From an uncultured Pelagibacteraceae bacterium (GTDB lineage: Bacteria > Pseudomonadota > Alphaproteobacteria > Pelagibacterales > Pelagibacteraceae), in NCBI GenBank assembly GCA_902546795.1, contig CACCLK010000009.1:1-36186 (forward strand): a stretch of 36,186 bases of DNA, written 5' to 3'. The translations under genes were made by a program, and so were the position numbers. Below the pieces are notes generated by a model. The model had not been told where the DNA came from and searched no databases. It saw nothing but the letters and a program-made list of their open reading frames with translations. Positions 1 to 8,278 of this stretch are shown here, piece after piece. Numbering within the stretch: the first letter of the stretch is position 1; each line of letters begins with the position of its first letter.

Positions 1-960
1 TTCATGAACAGAACACTTAATTTTACTTTTAATTCCTTCTACTACAGTTTTGGGTTCAACTATTCCTTTTTCAATGGCTAAAGCAACAGTGAAAGTTTTA
101 AATATTGATCCTAATTCAAAAATATCATGTGTGATTTTGTTGCTTAACTCTTTTTTTGAGAGGTCTTGTCTCACGTTAATATTGTAATCTGGGAGTGATA
201 CTAATGACAGAACTTCCCCACTATTGGCATCCATCAATAACCCTGCAGCTCCAGGTGATTTGAATGTTTCGATTGATTTTTCTAGCTCTGATTTGACTAT
301 AAATTGCAGATTGGTATCTAAACTTAGAGCGAGAGGTGATTTAATTTTTTTTTTATCTCTTAAGTCTTTATCGAAAAATTGTTCAACACCAGAAACACCA
401 AAATTATCGTCATCGATTTGACCTATAATATGGCTGAATAAATCCCCGTTTGGGTAAACTCTAGCTTGATAAGGTTCAAAAATTATTCCCTTTTCTCCTA
501 GCTCCCAAAGTTTTTGTTTCTCATTTTCTGTTAGTCTTTTCTTAATATAGAATTGTCTTTTAGTCTTTAAATTTGTCTCAATTTTTTTTGTATCAATATT
601 AGGAAAAATTAATTTTAGATTTATTATAAGTTTTTTATGATTTTTGATTAATTTACTTCTCACAGCCGCATGGTAAGATTCAATATTTCTTGATATTAAA
701 TTTCCGTTTCTATCGACAATATCTCTTCTTAAAACAAAAGATTTTTCTGCTTTTTTTATTTTATTTACTGAAGTTTCTTTTAAAGAAACTAAAAAGATTT
801 TTGTACTAAAGCTAAAAATTAAAAATATGAAAGAAAAAAAAAGGATTAATATCCTATCTTCTGAAATATTTGAGCTATTACTATGTCTTTGATTTGTTTC
901 TATAAAATCTTCAAAAAAAAAGCTTCTTTGATTTTTATTTATCAGTTTTTTTTTCCGCAT
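1..960 (-). CDS. ftsI: Peptidoglycan D,D-transpeptidase FtsI (PBP3), C-terminal part beyond the window
   Basis: Septal peptidoglycan transpeptidase that cross-links cell wall at the division site; a bitopic inner-membrane protein of the divisome. The ATG at 960 opens 320 codons that run off the left edge. Visible are a basic N-terminus, one membrane segment at about residues 37-55, the dimerisation/pedestal domain, and the first catalytic motif SxxK as SIFK with the nucleophile at Ser285 and Lys288. The SxN and KTG motifs lie outside the window. The start overlaps the end of ftsL by 26 bp in another frame, so the two are translationally coupled. PBP2/MrdA is the main alternative, but position after rsmH-ftsL favours FtsI. 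Confidence 0.9.
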   Translation of the reverse strand, partial: MRKKKLINKNQRSFFFEDFIETNQRHSNSSNISEDRILILFFSFIFLIFSFSTKIFLVSLKETSVNKIKKAEKSFVLRRDIVDRNGNLISRNIESYHAAVRSKLIKNHKKLIINLKLIFPNIDTKKIETNLKTKRQFYIKKRLTENEKQKLWELGEKGIIFEPYQARVYPNGDLFSHIIGQIDDDNFGVSGVEQFFDKDLRDKKKIKSPLALSLDTNLQFIVKSELEKSIETFKSPGAAGLLMDANSGEVLSLVSLPDYNINVRQDLSKKELSNKITHDIFELGSIFKTFTVALAIEKGIVEPKTVVEGIKSKIKCSVHE

Positions 961-1267
961 TTAATGACTCAGTAATTTTTAAATTATTAAGCTTATACTC
1001 ATTTAAACTTGAATAAATATTTGAATGACTTATAGAAAAATACTGTTCGTCACTAAATATTTTAATTTTTTCTGAAATATAGGAGGGTGAAGACAAATAA
1101 TAAAATTCTATCTGACTTTCATGTAGTATTTTTTCTAATTTGTTTGTTTTTTCTGTTAGCTTTGAGATATTCTTCTCAATCAACCTTGTTTGATTTTTTA
1201 CAAAAGAAGTTAATATTAATAATGTAGTAAATATTACTATTGATAATATTGTTTTACTTTTAAACAT
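935..1267 (-). CDS. ftsL: FtsL-like small division protein
   Basis: A 110-residue protein with a short cytoplasmic N-terminus, one membrane segment (about residues 7-24) and a charged, heptad-like stretch (about 30-60) compatible with the periplasmic coiled coil of FtsL. In the divisome FtsL pairs with FtsB and activates FtsWI. Sequence conservation in this family is very weak, so the call rests on size, topology and position between rsmH and ftsI. The start overlaps the rsmH stop by 8 bp and the end overlaps ftsI by 26 bp. Confidence 0.75.
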   Translation of the reverse strand: MFKSKTILSIVIFTTLLILTSFVKNQTRLIEKNISKLTEKTNKLEKILHESQIEFYYLSSPSYISEKIKIFSDEQYFSISHSNIYSSLNEYKLNNLKITESLNAEKKTDK

Positions 1268-2270
1268 TTGTCATTTCCAATTCTATATAACTTTTAAATT
1301 TTTCAATTAGTTCGCTAGAGTTTTTAAAAATTTCATTATTCCTTATGGCAAATCTTAATTTTGCTGATCTTGATGGGGGATTTTTTGATATTTCTAATGA
1401 TTTAGCTTTGATAACTTTATTTTTATAATCTTCAAAATATGTGATGTTTTTTTTTTGGTCTGGAAAGTATCTTGATTTTTTAGATTTTGAGCTAGAAAAG
1501 TTTTTAAAGAAGAATTTAATAATTTTGTCTTCTATTGAATGGAATGAAATTACTATCAATTTTCCACCTGGTTTTAAAATTTGTGTTGCTTGTGTAATTC
1601 CCTGAGTAAGCTCAGAAATTTCTTTGTTTACAAAAATCCGTAAAGCTTGGAATGTTTTTGTACTAACATTAATTTTTTTCTTAAAATTTTTTTTTTTTGA
1701 GAACTCAATTATATTTTTTAGCTCTTCAGCAGTTGAAATTTTTTTTATTTTTCTTTTTTTTATTATATTCCTCGCTATCCTATTTGCCTCCTTTTCTTCT
1801 CCAAAAATTTTAATTATCAATTTAAGTTCGTTCTCATTCAAATTATTTATTGCATCAAATGCTGTTATCTCATTAAGCCCCATAGACATATTTAAATTTT
1901 CTTTTGATTTAAAAGAGAATCCCCGGCTCATATTATTTAATTGATAGGAAGAAACTCCTAAATCAAAAATTATAAAATCAAATTTTTTATCTCCAAAAAT
2001 TTTAATAATATTGCTAAATTTTTCAGTTCGGAAATTAAACCTTTTAGGAAATTTTTTTTTTAAATTTAATGCGAATTTTGATACACTCTCATCCCTATCT
2101 ATAGCTGAGACGTTGGTGTTGGGCATTTTAAGAATTGACTCAGAGTAACCACCTCCTCCAAACGTACAATCTAAAAAATCCTTACCTTTTTGAAACCCAC
2201 AGATTTCAATTACTTCGTTCAATAAAACCGGGAAATGTGAAATCTCCGTTTGATTGATGAAGTTTTTCAT
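1260..2270 (-). CDS. rsmH: 16S rRNA m4C1402 N4-methyltransferase RsmH (MraW)
   Basis: SAM-dependent methyltransferase that modifies C1402 of 16S rRNA in the ribosomal P site. At 336 residues it is close to the family length of about 310-340. Family motifs are clear: the SAM loop DCTFGGGGYSE near residue 35, IDRDE, the DLGVSSYQL motif, SRGFSF, the TFQALRIFVN block and ISFHSIEDKIIK. It starts 18 bp after the ftsZ stop. In most dcw clusters rsmH directly follows mraZ; here ftsZ lies between them. No strong Shine-Dalgarno sequence precedes the ATG. Confidence 0.95.
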   Translation of the reverse strand: MKNFINQTEISHFPVLLNEVIEICGFQKGKDFLDCTFGGGGYSESILKMPNTNVSAIDRDESVSKFALNLKKKFPKRFNFRTEKFSNIIKIFGDKKFDFIIFDLGVSSYQLNNMSRGFSFKSKENLNMSMGLNEITAFDAINNLNENELKLIIKIFGEEKEANRIARNIIKKRKIKKISTAEELKNIIEFSKKKNFKKKINVSTKTFQALRIFVNKEISELTQGITQATQILKPGGKLIVISFHSIEDKIIKFFFKNFSSSKSKKSRYFPDQKKNITYFEDYKNKVIKAKSLEISKNPPSRSAKLRFAIRNNEIFKNSSELIEKFKSYIELEMTNV

Positions 2271-2288: not shown

Positions 2289-3767
2289 TTAAAATTTTTG
2301 TTTTCTCAAAAAGGCTGGTATCTCAAAATCTTCCTCTTCATCGGAAGCTTCTTGATCAAACAAATTTTGATTTATTGGTTCTTCGCCCAAATCATCTCTT
2401 TGACTCTCATTATCGCTCAATTCTTCAGAAAAAATTTTAGGCACTGCTTCTTCCGTAGATTCATCTTTTATCAGATTTTCATTTGAATTGTCCTCTATGT
2501 AGGATGCATTTTCCATTGAGATACCCGAAATTGAATCGATATCATTTTTTAAATGAAATTGGTTTGCTGGCTCCTCTTTTGACTCAAAATTTTTTAAATT
2601 AAGGGCTTGTTCCTCTTTTTCAATGAAATTTTCACTTTGATTTACATTTTCATTTATTTTCAAGGCAGTCGCACCCTCTATTGAACCTACAGCCGAATTT
2701 TCTGAAAATTTATTTGAAAAGAGATTGTCAGTATAATCATTACCTCTATTTTGGATTCTACTTACCACATTGAAAACTGGTGACTTTTGAAAGTTGCTTT
2801 TGTTGCTATCTAATGAAGTTGCAACAATAGAAACTCTAATTTTACCGTTCATGTTTTCGTCTTTGATCGCACCAAATATTAATTCGGCCTCCGGATCCAC
2901 CTCGGCTCTAATTTTATTAACTGCTTGATCCACCTCGAAAAGAGTAATATCGCTGCCACCAGTTATATTAACTAAAAGACCTTTAGCACCTTTTAAAGAA
3001 TACTCGTCAATCAGCGGATTATTAAGTGCAATCTCTGTTGCAACTGATCCTCTATTTTCACCTTCTGCTTCGCCAGTTCCCATCATAGCTTTACCCATCG
3101 CGCTCATAACTGTTTCAACGTCGGCGAAGTCAAGGTTTATTAATCCTGGCCTCACCATCAAATCAGTAACACTTTGAACTCCATGTTTTAAAACATCATT
3201 TGATAATGAAAATGATTTTTCAAAAGTAGTTGTCTCGTTTGCAATTTTGAAAAGGTTTTGATTAGGAACAACAATTGATGTGTCCAAATATTTTTTTAGT
3301 TGCTCCCAGCCTTGTAAAGCTCTTCTCATTCTTTTTGGGCCCTCATAGGAAAAAGGCAAAGTGATAACACCAACTGTCAAAATATTAAGTTCTTTAGCAG
3401 CTCTTGCGATTACATGAGAAGCACCAGTCCCTGTTCCACCGCCCATACCAGCCGTAATAAAAATCATGTTACTGCCTTGGATATAGTTTACAATTTCATT
3501 TAGAGACTCGTCTGCAGCAGCCTGACCAATATCATTTTTTGCTCCTGCGCCCAAACCTTTTGTTAAATTCATTCCTATTTGAATCTTTGCATCAGCCTTG
3601 TTCATTTTTAAATCTTGAGCGTCAGTGTTGACTGCAACAAATTCAACTCCCTGAAGTCCTGCATCTATCATTGCATTAATAGCATTTCCACCAGCTCCAC
3701 CAACACCTAAAACCAATATTCTTGGTTTTAATTCTTTTAATTCGCCACCACCAATATTTAAACTCAT
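2289..3767 (-). CDS. ftsZ: Cell division GTPase FtsZ
   Basis: Tubulin-like GTPase that forms the Z ring. The N-terminal GTPase domain has GVGGAGGNA and the tubulin signature GGGTGTGAS starting at Gly109. An acidic, low-complexity linker (about residues 330-475) leads to the conserved C-terminal tail peptide EIPAFLRKQ, which binds FtsA and ZipA-type partners. The ATG at 3767 gives a typical alphaproteobacterial N-terminus of about 492 residues; a GTG immediately upstream at 3770 would add one codon. A strong purine tract AGGGGGAG (3771-3778) lies almost against the start. The gene is 9-12 bp downstream of mraZ, an unusual location because ftsZ normally closes the dcw cluster after ftsQA. Confidence 0.97.
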   Translation of the reverse strand: MSLNIGGGELKELKPRILVLGVGGAGGNAINAMIDAGLQGVEFVAVNTDAQDLKMNKADAKIQIGMNLTKGLGAGAKNDIGQAAADESLNEIVNYIQGSNMIFITAGMGGGTGTGASHVIARAAKELNILTVGVITLPFSYEGPKRMRRALQGWEQLKKYLDTSIVVPNQNLFKIANETTTFEKSFSLSNDVLKHGVQSVTDLMVRPGLINLDFADVETVMSAMGKAMMGTGEAEGENRGSVATEIALNNPLIDEYSLKGAKGLLVNITGGSDITLFEVDQAVNKIRAEVDPEAELIFGAIKDENMNGKIRVSIVATSLDSNKSNFQKSPVFNVVSRIQNRGNDYTDNLFSNKFSENSAVGSIEGATALKINENVNQSENFIEKEEQALNLKNFESKEEPANQFHLKNDIDSISGISMENASYIEDNSNENLIKDESTEEAVPKIFSEELSDNESQRDDLGEEPINQNLFDQEASDEEEDFEIPAFLRKQKF

Positions 3768-3779
3768 CACTCCCCCTTT

Positions 3780-4232
3780 TTAGTTATTGTTATTTTGCCA
3801 TTTTAAGCTTGATCTATTCTGAAATGCTTTTTTCCTTGCAGTAGTTTTAAATTTTTCAAAAATTTTTGGATTCCAAATTTGAAAGGTTTTGCCTAGACCC
3901 ACAAATAAAATATTACTTGTTATTTTTGCGTGGTTTAACAAGTTACTTGGTAAAAGAACTCTTCCTTCTGTATCAAATTGAAGACTAGTGCTTTCAGACA
4001 AAATTGAAGTAGCAAAAAAATCTCTTTTTTCTTCAAATGGATTTAAACTGTCGATTGCATTTGAAATCTTTTCAATTCTATCCTGTGAACATGCCTCTAA
4101 AGACTCGCTGCTGAATGATGGATAAGCTATAAACCCGTTATATCCCATAGAGGTAAGATATGACCTAAAGCTTGCTGGCACTGACACTCTTCCTTTCTTG
4201 TCTAATTTGTTTTCGTAACTTGATAAAAACAT
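3780..4232 (-). CDS. mraZ: Transcriptional regulator MraZ
   Basis: First gene of the division/cell-wall cluster. MraZ is a DNA-binding protein made of two swapped-hairpin AbrB/SpoVT half-domains, forms ring oligomers, and represses its own operon in E. coli. Both DxxxR signatures are present: Asp11-Arg15 in DKKGR and Asp87-Arg91 in DTEGR. The length of 150 residues matches the family (about 150). A GGAGC sequence about 12 nt upstream of the ATG may serve as ribosome binding site. The upstream region carries three TGGGN repeats, the operator expected for this protein, so autoregulation of mraZ-ftsZ is likely. Confidence 0.95.
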   Translation of the reverse strand: MFLSSYENKLDKKGRVSVPASFRSYLTSMGYNGFIAYPSFSSESLEACSQDRIEKISNAIDSLNPFEEKRDFFATSILSESTSLQFDTEGRVLLPSNLLNHAKITSNILFVGLGKTFQIWNPKIFEKFKTTARKKAFQNRSSLKWQNNNN

Positions 4233-4280
4233 AATTTAAAAAATGCTCCATAATCTTAATAATTTATTAATCCTCCATAT

Positions 4281-4305
4281 TGGGATTATTTGGGATCTTA
4301 TGGGT
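4281..4305. promoter_or_regulatory. MraZ box: three TGGGN repeats with 10-bp period
   Basis: On the plus strand TGGGA, TGGGA and TGGGT begin at 4281, 4291 and 4301, each separated by exactly 5 bp. E. coli MraZ is reported to bind TGGGN direct repeats with 5-nt spacers upstream of the mra promoter, and this array matches that description. The boxes surround the candidate -10 element and start site, which suits repression. They read on the strand opposite to mraZ; I do not know whether this orientation is usual. Confidence 0.7.
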
Positions 4306-4322
4306 TTTGATAGAATAGTCAA
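4295..4322 (-). promoter_or_regulatory. Candidate promoter of mraZ-ftsZ operon
   Basis: Read on the minus strand, TTGACT (4317-4322) and TAAGAT (4295-4300) are separated by 16 bp, fitting a sigma-70 promoter. The predicted start near 4288 leaves a leader of about 55 nt before the mraZ ATG. The -10 element lies between two of the TGGG repeats. Assigned by eye only. Confidence 0.5.
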
Positions 4323-4369
4323 TATAATTGTTTCTTGTGAAAAAGCACAAAATAAGAACATTAGATTTT

Positions 4370-4730
4370 GCCAGATAATCTATAAGCCGGGTTCTGTCAT
4401 TGAAGATATCATTTATCTAGGCTCAAACTCGCGTTTAAGCTCAAGCGGCTAACCCAGGTAACTAATTAAAGACTATTTTTAGCTAATTTCATAGAAATTT
4501 AGCAATGTCACCTCTATTTAGCCTTGCTCCCAGTGGGGTTTGCCGTGCGATTTTTGTTACCAAAAACCCGGTGTGCTCTTACCACACCGTTTCACCCTTG
4601 CCTTGATAAGGCGGTTTATTTTCTGTGGCACTGTCCCTGAGGTCACCCTCGCCAGTAGTTGACTGGCACTGTGTCTCTAAGGAGCCCGGACTTTCCTCTA
4701 GCAATGCTAGCGAGTATCCGATTATCTGGC
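4370..4730 (-). ncRNA. rnpB: RNase P RNA, bacterial class A
   Basis: Catalytic RNA of RNase P, which removes 5' leaders from tRNA precursors. On the minus strand the 5' end GCCAGATAAT (4721-4730) pairs with the 3' end ATTATCTGGC (4370-4379) to make helix P1. The hallmark 5' sequence GAGGAAAGTCCGGGCTCC is at 4681-4698 and the 3' sequence ACAGAACCCGGCTTAT at 4382-4397; together they form the P4 core. Length is about 361 nt. The RNA lies between the amidase gene (40 bp upstream) and mraZ; no clean promoter hexamers were seen. End positions are inferred from P1 and may be off by a few bases. Confidence 0.95.
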
Positions 4731-7108: not shown

Positions 7109-8278
7109 ATGCTAAGTTATTCAAAAATTCAAAAAAAAATTAGTAGAGTAAAATCAAAATTAAATAAAGATCAAAGAAATTTGCATCAAATTGATATTTC
7201 AAGAAATTTTCTATTAAAGAATTTTGGATTCAAAAAAACAAATAATAAGCTTTCAGAAAATGGTCTCAAAAGAATATTTAATTTTGCTAATTTAATTAAA
7301 AAGGCTACTCATAAAGAGAGAAAAAAGGACATGTGGAATCTAATTACTTCGGATCAAGATCATCTTGATCTGTTTGAAGCATGCGTATCATCAAATAAAA
7401 AAAAGTTTTTGAATTTAATAAGTTCAGCAGGAAAAACAAAACTAGTTTACGGTTATTTAAATAGATTTTCTTACAATGATCTTAATAAAAATGATGACTA
7501 TAAAGTCAAAGAGTCTATGCATGTCATAGACAGCTTAGTTTCATTTTCAGAATTTTCCAAAAAAATCAAAGTTTTTTGCCCGGAACAAGGGGGTTGGGTA
7601 GTTGAAAATACTAATTACTTAAGTTTACTAAAGAAAAATTTTGTTCACCATAAAAAGGAAATTAAACCTTTTATATCTCCTAACTATGCTTATGGACTTC
7701 GAATAAAAAACAGATTTTACGGTGTTAAAGATATTAACGGATTATATAGTGCGTTCAAAATCAACAATATTCTTAAAAATTATAAAATCGATAATGTAAG
7801 CGAAATTGGATCAGGCCTAGGGGTTGTCGCTTATTATGTAAATAAAATTTCTCGAATTAATTATTATATTTACGACTTACCAATTATAAACATTTTACAA
7901 GCTTATTTTTTAATGTTGTCATTAGGAGAAAAAAAAGTTTCTTTATTTGGTGAAAAAAAATTTTTAAAAAATCAAGTAATGATTTTGCCTTACTGGGAAA
8001 TTTTTAAAAGAAAAGAAACATCAAAAACTTTATGGTTTAATCAGGACTCAATCCCAGAAATTGACAAGTCATTATCTGAAAAGTATTTAAAAGTAATAAT
8101 GTCAAATAAAAAATGCCTCTTTTTATCAATTAATCAAGAGTCACGAAATTTTAATGGTGTTGGAACTCATCAACATACGCTTGGGGATCTTATGAAAAAT
8201 AAAAAATATAAATTAATACATCGTTCTCGAGATTTCCTAAGACAAGGTTACGTTGAAGAACTATTTAATTTTAAATAA
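7109..8278 (+). CDS. Putative sugar O-methyltransferase
   Basis: A 389-residue protein resembling the putative sugar O-methyltransferase family found in surface-polysaccharide loci. The C-terminal half has a Rossmann SAM site: EIGSGLGVVAYY with Glu232 and glycines 234, 236 and 238, followed by YIYDLPIINILQAYF as strand beta-2. The N-terminal 200 residues are helical and lysine/asparagine-rich. No glycan-synthesis gene lies beside it. It stands alone between a tRNA gene and rpoD, which suggests an accessory insertion. The substrate is unknown; the methyltransferase fold is much surer than the sugar specificity. Confidence 0.7.
   Translation: MLSYSKIQKKISRVKSKLNKDQRNLHQIDISRNFLLKNFGFKKTNNKLSENGLKRIFNFANLIKKATHKERKKDMWNLITSDQDHLDLFEACVSSNKKKFLNLISSAGKTKLVYGYLNRFSYNDLNKNDDYKVKESMHVIDSLVSFSEFSKKIKVFCPEQGGWVVENTNYLSLLKKNFVHHKKEIKPFISPNYAYGLRIKNRFYGVKDINGLYSAFKINNILKNYKIDNVSEIGSGLGVVAYYVNKISRINYYIYDLPIINILQAYFLMLSLGEKKVSLFGEKKFLKNQVMILPYWEIFKRKETSKTLWFNQDSIPEIDKSLSEKYLKVIMSNKKCLFLSINQESRNFNGVGTHQHTLGDLMKNKKYKLIHRSRDFLRQGYVEELFNFK

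Follow-up and report, generated by a model that had tools for sequence, protein, structure and literature searches.

Relocation of ftsZ to second place in the division cluster of Pelagibacterales, next to a putatively MraZ-boxed promoter and a candidate overlapping reading frame

The division and cell wall (dcw) cluster of Escherichia coli, and of most Alphaproteobacteria sampled here, begins with mraZ behind a promoter bearing a G-rich repeat box and carries ftsZ between ftsA and lpxC. SAR11 bacteria, which are among the most abundant marine cell types, have the same genes on one strand, mraZ in first place, a G-rich repeat box at the promoter and likewise the order ftsI-mur-ftsW-ddl-ftsQ-ftsA-lpxC, but their ftsZ stands between mraZ and rsmH. 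Here we analyse this arrangement in a contig of 36,186 nucleotides from an uncultured Pelagibacteraceae bacterium of the order Pelagibacterales (CACCLK010000009.1, assembly GCA_902546795.1), the whole of which we call the window.

Several described systems resemble parts of this locus. The MraZ protein of E. coli is autoregulatory, and systems of this kind have short G-rich repeats with a 10-bp period at the mraZ promoter, as SAR11 does; the SAR11 repeats differ in lying over the -10 element, on the strand opposite to the E. coli ones, and their binding by MraZ is putative. In the reduced clusters of Mollicutes, ftsZ is found close behind mraZ under one promoter, the intervening mur genes having been lost, whereas SAR11 keeps the cluster and ftsZ itself has moved. 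The mraZ promoter of Burkholderia cenocepacia is described as having four 7-nt repeats with 3-nt spacers (PMC7761207). An example of a bacterial regulatory upstream open reading frame (uORF) is that of E. coli topAI (PMC12121999). Like it, the candidate SAR11 open reading frame (ORF) described below is short and has a good start site ahead of a gene; unlike it, the SAR11 ORF shares a stretch of 20-22 codons with the regulator gene, out of frame with it, and both frames look constrained. Our literature search, outside which most subscription papers lay, found no report of a mraZ-ftsZ junction or of an ORF overlapping mraZ. The available text of a genome-wide comparison of gene order between HIMB59 and SAR11 has no mention of ftsZ (PMC3815206).

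Position of ftsZ and spread of the mraZ-ftsZ junction

The minus strand of the window reads rnpB, a predicted promoter, mraZ, ftsZ, rsmH, an ftsL-like ORF and ftsI (Table 1). An initial annotation, made from the letters of the DNA, had proposed the order mraZ-ftsZ-rsmH-ftsL-ftsI, with ftsZ in second place directly under the first promoter and MraZ. Family matches confirmed this order, ftsL being named by its place only, and the second place of ftsZ is borne out. Both the tubulin/FtsZ GTPase domain and the C-terminal domain of FtsZ score above curated cut-offs. The listed start of the gene is a GTG at 3770; the ATG at 3767, preceded by GGGGGAG, is likelier.

The window is contig C9 of a genome of 703 kb in 27 contigs, 60.6% complete. 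Contig C13 of the same genome (locus L171) starts within ftsI, as seen by BLAST, and continues with murE/murF (one ORF)-mraY-murD-ftsW-murG-murC-murB-ddl-ftsQ-ftsA-lpxC, leaving the canonical ftsZ slot between ftsA and lpxC vacant. These gene names are backed by family searches, that of ftsQ only through a POTRA domain and its place, and the ftsA match is weak (TIGR01174, 116.7 bits with a cut-off of 175.85; PF02491, 24 bits with a cut-off of 25.4). The genome has a single ftsZ match; as it is incomplete, relatives matter for both the copy number of ftsZ and the gene order. Genome G208 of the window's family, a single contig of 1,211,322 bp with a completeness rating of 100%, shares the gene order and likewise has one ftsZ match; neither ftsL nor murG was recognised in its cluster. 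The dcw backbone mraZ-rsmH-ftsL-ftsI-mur genes-ftsW-ddl-ftsQ-ftsA, spread over two contigs in the window's own genome, is present on one strand within single stretches at loci L172, L174, L175, L176, L177, L178 and L180.

We scored the junction in 121 genomes of the taxonomic order, namely the window's own and 120 relatives, which belong to the window's family (f1) or to a second family of the order (f2). Matches were obtained for ftsZ in 94 and for mraZ in 97 of them, and the two genes were adjacent on one strand in 94/94 genomes scored for both (57 f1 and 37 f2, own genome included). Among the 97 genomes with mraZ, the weak mraZ row of G100 was left out, and in G075 and G039 ftsZ had no match and mraZ lay close to the end of a contig. 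The initial annotation had proposed looking for a second ftsZ and, beyond the left edge of the window, for ftsQA. No second ftsZ was found in the own genome or in relatives with an ftsZ match, all 94 having one each (27/121 had none). In relatives, ftsA stands some 15 kb downstream, with lpxC after it; the distance from ftsZ to ftsA is 14.2-15.3 kb in all 51 genomes of the order with both found on one contig. Named Pelagibacteraceae loci showed mraZ-ftsZ in 80/80 cases, these being the best 80 loci among named genome contigs and sharing several assemblies with the 94 genomes above. Among close relatives, the best 80/80 loci are titled Pelagibacteraceae, a name that alone cannot separate SAR11 from HIMB59 because NCBI files HIMB59 in the same family.

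We also drew 143 genomes from the whole class. A match was lacking for mraZ in 20 and for ftsZ in 3; 121 had both, 24 of these were unscored with the genes on different contigs, and 97 were scored. The genes were adjacent in four (two f1 and two f9, the latter a family in another order) and non-adjacent in 93: 82 at 14-24 kb, 3 at 10-14 kb, 3 at more than 24 kb, 4 on opposite strands and 1 upstream. Sampling of the order of f9 (32 genomes) yielded ftsZ in 23 and mraZ in 21, and the two are neighbours in 21/21 genomes with mraZ, the 11 others being unscored. Gene order is the same in those f9 clusters that were read, which end in ftsA-lpxC where the stretch is long enough, with ftsQ recognised in G263 and G268. 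These results indicate that ftsZ was relocated, not duplicated, and that mraZ-ftsZ is a trait of the lineage. The initial annotation had stated that its reading would be refuted, and the order reduced to a known lineage trait, if the whole clade had it; the order is real, and it is common to every scorable genome of the clade, so that this refuting condition applies. Adjacency in 94/94 speaks against chance or assembly error.

Other arrangements were also seen. G141 (L301) carries ftsQ-ftsA-ftsZ-lpxC divergently and directly upstream of mraZ, and G239 (L304) has a divergent ftsQ-ftsA-ftsZ several kb upstream of it. In G182 (0.9 Mb, rated 100% complete; L311) mraZ is present but ftsZ gave no match, and no further gene of the cluster was recognised within the 20 kb read around mraZ.

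HIMB59-type genomes and the junction as a marker

Whether HIMB59 (subclade V) belongs in SAR11 has long been disputed on the basis of trees affected by AT bias (PMC3815206, PMC6447387), and base composition is described as pulling these taxa together (PMC6447387). Subclades IV and V have been doubted as Pelagibacterales, for which a split rRNA operon, with 5S not after 23S, was put forward as a criterion (PMC7318151). A gene move is a discrete character and cannot be imitated by base composition. The HIMB59 genome is given as 1410 kb (Table 1 of PMC3815206). We treat G148, a single contig of 1,410,127 bp that shares only the class with the window and belongs to another order, as a putative HIMB59-type genome, on its size only.

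HIMB59-type genomes (SAR11 subclade V / AEGEAN-169) are like those of the window's clade in being small and AT-rich and in having ampD ahead of mraZ, but differ in the cluster itself. G148 has one block reading mraZ-rsmH-ftsI-murE-murF-mraY-murD-ftsW and another reading murG-murC-murB-ddl-(an ORF in the place of ftsQ, without family match)-ftsA-ftsZ-lpxC, so that ftsZ lies between ftsA and lpxC in the second block. In the order of G148, 53/60 sampled genomes have mraZ, and rsmH follows it in 30/30 loci read, which are the best-scoring 30 of the 53 (27 from family f30 and 3 from f127). As far as it was read, the HIMB59-type order is without the ftsZ move; the comparison with HIMB59-type genomes that the initial annotation had suggested thus showed an arrangement that they do not share. 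Two assignments were rejected. Membership of the window in the HIMB59-type order is not borne out, as G148 is in a different order and has the mraZ-rsmH junction, and f9 is not HIMB59, as the sampled order of G148 holds f30 and f127 but no f9.

Trees were built from 15 concatenated cluster proteins (77 taxa, 5492 columns) under LG and after four-state recoding (SR4). With all taxa, G148 fell inside the clade that carries the trait, joined to f2 with support of 0.797 (LG) and 0.973 (SR4). This placement weighs against a single move that left HIMB59 outside since, if true, it would require a reversal of the move. The branch of G148 is very long, however (1.59 under LG, the second longest in the tree), and its grouping with f2 is probably a product of long-branch attraction. 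Without G148, and with the other taxa kept, f1+f2+f9 formed a clade at 0.994 (LG) and 0.99 (SR4); with further taxa dropped, the clade had support of 1.0 (LG) and 0.783 (SR4), and then 1.0 and 1.0. It was thus present in all six trees lacking G148, with a lowest support of 0.783. In the recoded tree of all taxa, the node linking f9 to the rest has a support of 0.038.

As for the rRNA criterion, the two f1 genomes inspected (G208 and G006; loci L421, L424) have no 5S behind 23S, while 5S does stand behind 23S in G074 of f2, G291 of f9 and G148, G301 and G302 of the HIMB59-type order (L419, L420, L422, L423, L425). Since 5S follows 23S in f2 and f9, the rRNA split appears to postdate the ftsZ move. 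Adjacency of 16S and 23S was uninformative as a marker, the eight loci being all alike. A single ftsZ move with HIMB59 outside would be the simplest account. Read from gene order, the ftsZ junction is a rare discrete marker, free of composition bias, that would place HIMB59 outside SAR11. It favours excluding HIMB59, would link another order to SAR11, and offers a test of the membership of subclades IV and V in Pelagibacterales.

Control signals and an overlapping frame at mraZ

Candidate -35 and -10 elements and a putative MraZ-type box lie ahead of mraZ in the window (Table 1). To judge their conservation we used 102 distinct f1 sequences, left after removal of duplicates, of short upstream parts and of loci without the start motif. 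The promoter pattern TTGAC-N15-18-TANNNT occurs in 98/102 and the box in 97/102, and the -10 element starts 4 nt into the box in 95/97 loci having both. An exact scan of whole genomes found the box in 37/41, while the reversed pattern, used as a control, was found in 0/41. In f1 the box occurs once per genome in 21/25, always at mraZ; the four genomes without the box gave no mraZ match either. It is present in 16/16 f2 genomes, at mraZ only, and the window's genome has the exact three-repeat box once, in front of mraZ. The E. coli K-12 mraZ promoter region (L286) carries GTGGG three times with a 10-bp period on the sense strand, which we take to be the MraZ site.

The predicted mraZ promoter is thus overlaid by what appears to be an MraZ-type box, the only such box in the genomes scanned. 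Some points count against this interpretation. The conserved promoter pattern is lax; the promoter scan gave 12 sites with 8.5 (sd 2.5) in shuffles; and the box scan, being exact, misses degenerate boxes elsewhere, most genomes being incomplete. Because the scan barely exceeds the shuffles, the promoter call rests on conservation. The same scan gave no promoter-like site on the coding strand between 4230 and 3770.

Translation signals differ strongly between the first two genes. Only 2/102 mraZ start codons have a Shine-Dalgarno (SD)-like element, and the median SD energy is -2.75 kcal/mol before mraZ (102 f1 loci) and -8.4 kcal/mol before ftsZ (75 loci, those of the 102 in which the ftsZ start was found). 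With a strong site at ftsZ and almost none at mraZ, little MraZ and much FtsZ would be expected per transcript. The two genes overlap, stop to start, by 4 or 1 nt in 54/75 loci; in the window a gap of 12 nt separates them. The initial annotation had further held that the move couples Z-ring dosage to the first promoter and to MraZ. The position of ftsZ and the sole exact box agree with this, while the coupling of dosage itself is a prediction from sequence only. An index of growth based on ftsZ transcripts relative to RNase P RNA has been applied to marine groups, Pelagibacterales among them (PMC13349992). As rnpB adjoins the predicted boxed mraZ-ftsZ operon on the same strand, the two terms of this index may not be independent.

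A short ORF opens upstream of mraZ and runs into it in the +1 frame. We found an upstream start opening into mraZ in the +1 frame of 99/102 f1 sequences and in the other two frames of 5 and 11; with an SD-like element, the numbers were 87 for the +1 frame and 3 and 0 for the others. The start differs by lineage, being mostly a TTG 37 nt upstream of mraZ in the window's genus and an ATG 7 nt upstream in 16/25 sequences of the group L146-L170. The median SD energy at the best upstream start is -9.8 kcal/mol (99 loci), a value favoured by choice since the best start was taken per locus. On average, the +1 frame is open for 20.4 mraZ codons, compared with 6.1 in synonymous shuffles (highest of 200: 7.5).

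Avoidance of +1 stops was tested on pyrimidine-ending codons before AA, AG or GA, where a T would create such a stop. These stop-prone codons end in C in 303/328 cases (92%) among mraZ codons 1-21 and in 350/1624 (22%) further along the gene, while other pyrimidine-ending codons in the first 21 do so in 36/511 (7%). Control stretches of 21 codons gave 7/53 for ftsZ, 27/168 for rsmH, 16/119 for ampD and 3/52 for mraY (6-16%), from 36, 85, 43 and 20 loci, respectively; for rsmH and ampD the control stretch was anchored on an internal motif instead of the start codon, and the mraY stretch was located by a short motif. The mraZ of f9 gave 17/61 (28%). A +1 TAG stop stands at mraZ codons 22-23 in 99/102 f1 loci. 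Val18 is encoded by GTG in 102/102 f1 sequences, compared with 38/456 among other Val codons and with 1/9 at this position in f2 (f9 and HIMB59-order rows being too few for use). This invariant GTG points to a kept residue of the +1 frame or to an RNA feature, not to stop avoidance. Taken together, these findings are what would be expected if the first 20-22 mraZ codons of f1 were read in two frames. The ORF was seen in f1, but not in f9 and not clearly in f2. Its translation, if real, would subject a regulator of the division cluster to a novel type of control.

Several observations weigh on the other side. The window's own ORF starts at an ATG without a strong SD, the usual SD-TTG start of its relatives being missing. 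In f2 mraZ, 14/29 stop-prone codons end in C (48%), above background, albeit in few sequences. Codon usage alone would give the +1 stop at codons 22-23 in about three quarters of loci (elsewhere, TTT makes up 1007/1164 Phe and AGR 544/634 Arg codons). Finally, a +1 stop occurs two codons earlier in 23/102 sequences, and one locus each has a stop at +1 positions 8 and 11.

Two further observations concern the same region. In f2 (L175:1378-1866 and others) an upstream TTG lies in frame with mraZ and would add a short hydrophobic N-terminal extension to MraZ, LLIILITNFFLK. The NTT-TAG at the end of the ORF was considered as a site of RF2-like +1 frameshifting; the idea was set aside, as such a shift would replace the conserved N-terminus of MraZ; no SD-like frameshift stimulator was seen near NTT-TAG, by eye only.

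Proposed working, alternatives and further features

The account that we consider probable joins a single relocation of ftsZ in a shared ancestor, one boxed promoter, damping by MraZ of its own operon, and an overlapping ORF that would lower mraZ translation or make a peptide. In the common ancestor of Pelagibacterales and one neighbouring order, ftsZ would have left its site between ftsA and lpxC for one between mraZ and rsmH, where it would have remained. A single promoter, overlaid by the MraZ-type box, would now drive an operon in which ftsZ comes second. MraZ most likely represses this promoter, which would hold the level of ftsZ message steady, and one transcript would give sparse MraZ and abundant FtsZ through the difference between their ribosome-binding sites. 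In Pelagibacteraceae, the overlapping ORF would most likely lower mraZ translation, or else yield a small basic peptide. Against a radical change speaks E. coli work, cited in PMC5089854, in which distal upstream transcripts already feed ftsZ, so the change in ftsZ control would be one of degree. Only tentatively do we extend this account to a SAR11 division run from one self-limiting switch, in which the MraZ-boxed promoter drives mraZ and ftsZ, the dual-coded ORF with its stronger site keeps MraZ low and makes a small basic peptide, and the single move marks SAR11 and one further order and excludes HIMB59.

The fragmentary state of the genome (60.6%) and the contig edge that cuts the cluster would be compatible with an order peculiar to this genome, an artefact of assembly or a further copy of ftsZ. 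Such an origin is scarcely credible given the same order in 80/80 named loci of other assemblies and in the single-contig G208, which has one ftsZ match, and given the emptied ftsZ place visible on contig C13. The new place could also be a neutral relic, a chance move made once and kept as the cluster rarely changes, with no regulatory meaning. That other alphaproteobacterial clusters are broken in different ways (G141, G239 and G148, the last split after ftsW) is in keeping with this, but retention in 94/94 and 21/21 scored genomes, the overlap of mraZ stop and ftsZ start in 54/75 loci and the finding of the MraZ-type box only ahead of mraZ-ftsZ make it rather unlikely.

We regard as improbable two independent moves, in Pelagibacterales and in the order of f9, under the same streamlining pressure: the insertion point, the emptied place and the remaining order are identical, and f1+f2+f9 form a clade in six of six trees without G148, even though f9 is placed in another order and the node joining it has a support of 0.038 in the recoded tree of all taxa. 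As for the overlapping frame, its openness could be a by-product of constraint on the RNA near the start, through structure or codon choice, and not of translation. The upstream start codon does vary by lineage and is weak in the window, and the GTG of Val18, unrelated to +1 stops, might mark an internal start or some feature of the RNA. Against such a constraint stand the contrast between stop-prone codons (92% C-ending) and other pyrimidine-ending codons of the same stretch (7%) and the concentration of upstream starts in the +1 frame (99 vs 5 and 11; with SD, 87 vs 3 and 0). The effect is moreover absent beyond codon 22 and in the ftsZ, rsmH, ampD and mraY controls, and weak or missing in the mraZ of f9 (28%) and f2 (48%, 29 codons). 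We therefore judge the RNA explanation to have little chance of being right, and prefer the account of one move and a frame that may be translated.

Table 1. Features of the division cluster and its upstream region in the window
Feature	Coordinates	Strand	Remarks
ftsI	1..960	-	cut at contig edge; PF03717 (PBP dimer) and PF00905 (transpeptidase)
ftsL-like ORF	935..1267	-	named from place alone; family searches without match
rsmH (mraW)	1260..2270	-	third gene; TIGR00006, 259.3 bits (cut-off 154.3)
ftsZ	2289..3770 listed, likelier 2289..3767	-	second gene; TIGR00065, 377 bits (cut-off 295.2); PF00091 and PF12327
ftsZ ribosome-binding site	3770..3776	-	GGGGGAG; predicted from sequence
mraZ	3780..4232	-	first cluster gene; NCBIfam NF001477, 164.3 bits (cut-off 162); PF02381
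Overlapping short ORF (candidate)	4165..4251	-	+1 frame of mraZ; 28 codons, MEHFLNYVFIKLRKQIRQERKSVSASKL
SD-like element	4272..4276	-	GGAGG; paired in most loci of the genus with the overlapping ORF's TTG start
MraZ-type box (putative)	4281..4304	-	CCCA-N6-CCCA-N6-CCCA; TGGG x3 on the other strand, 10-bp period
-10 element (predicted)	4295..4300	-	TAAGAT; within the MraZ-type box
-35 element (predicted)	4317..4322	-	TTGACT; lax pattern conserved in f1
rnpB (RNase P RNA class A)	4367..4729	-	RF00010, 302 bits; directly upstream of the promoter, same strand

Elsewhere in the window, a 389-aa ORF at 7109-8278 (+), without a Pfam match at E 0.001, is flanked by a tRNA and a sigma-70 gene. Within the wider cluster, the FtsA of the window's genus (L171:11752-12948) is highly divergent and falls under the curated cut-offs of TIGR01174 and PF02491. 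The genes murE and murF form one ORF of 932 aa (L171:507-3305), with the NCBIfam models for murE and murF each above cut-off. The same single ORF was seen in the same-genus clusters of G016, G034 and G063 and at loci L147, L152, L164 and L169; the two genes are separate in G208, f2 and f9, and G184 has a different fusion.

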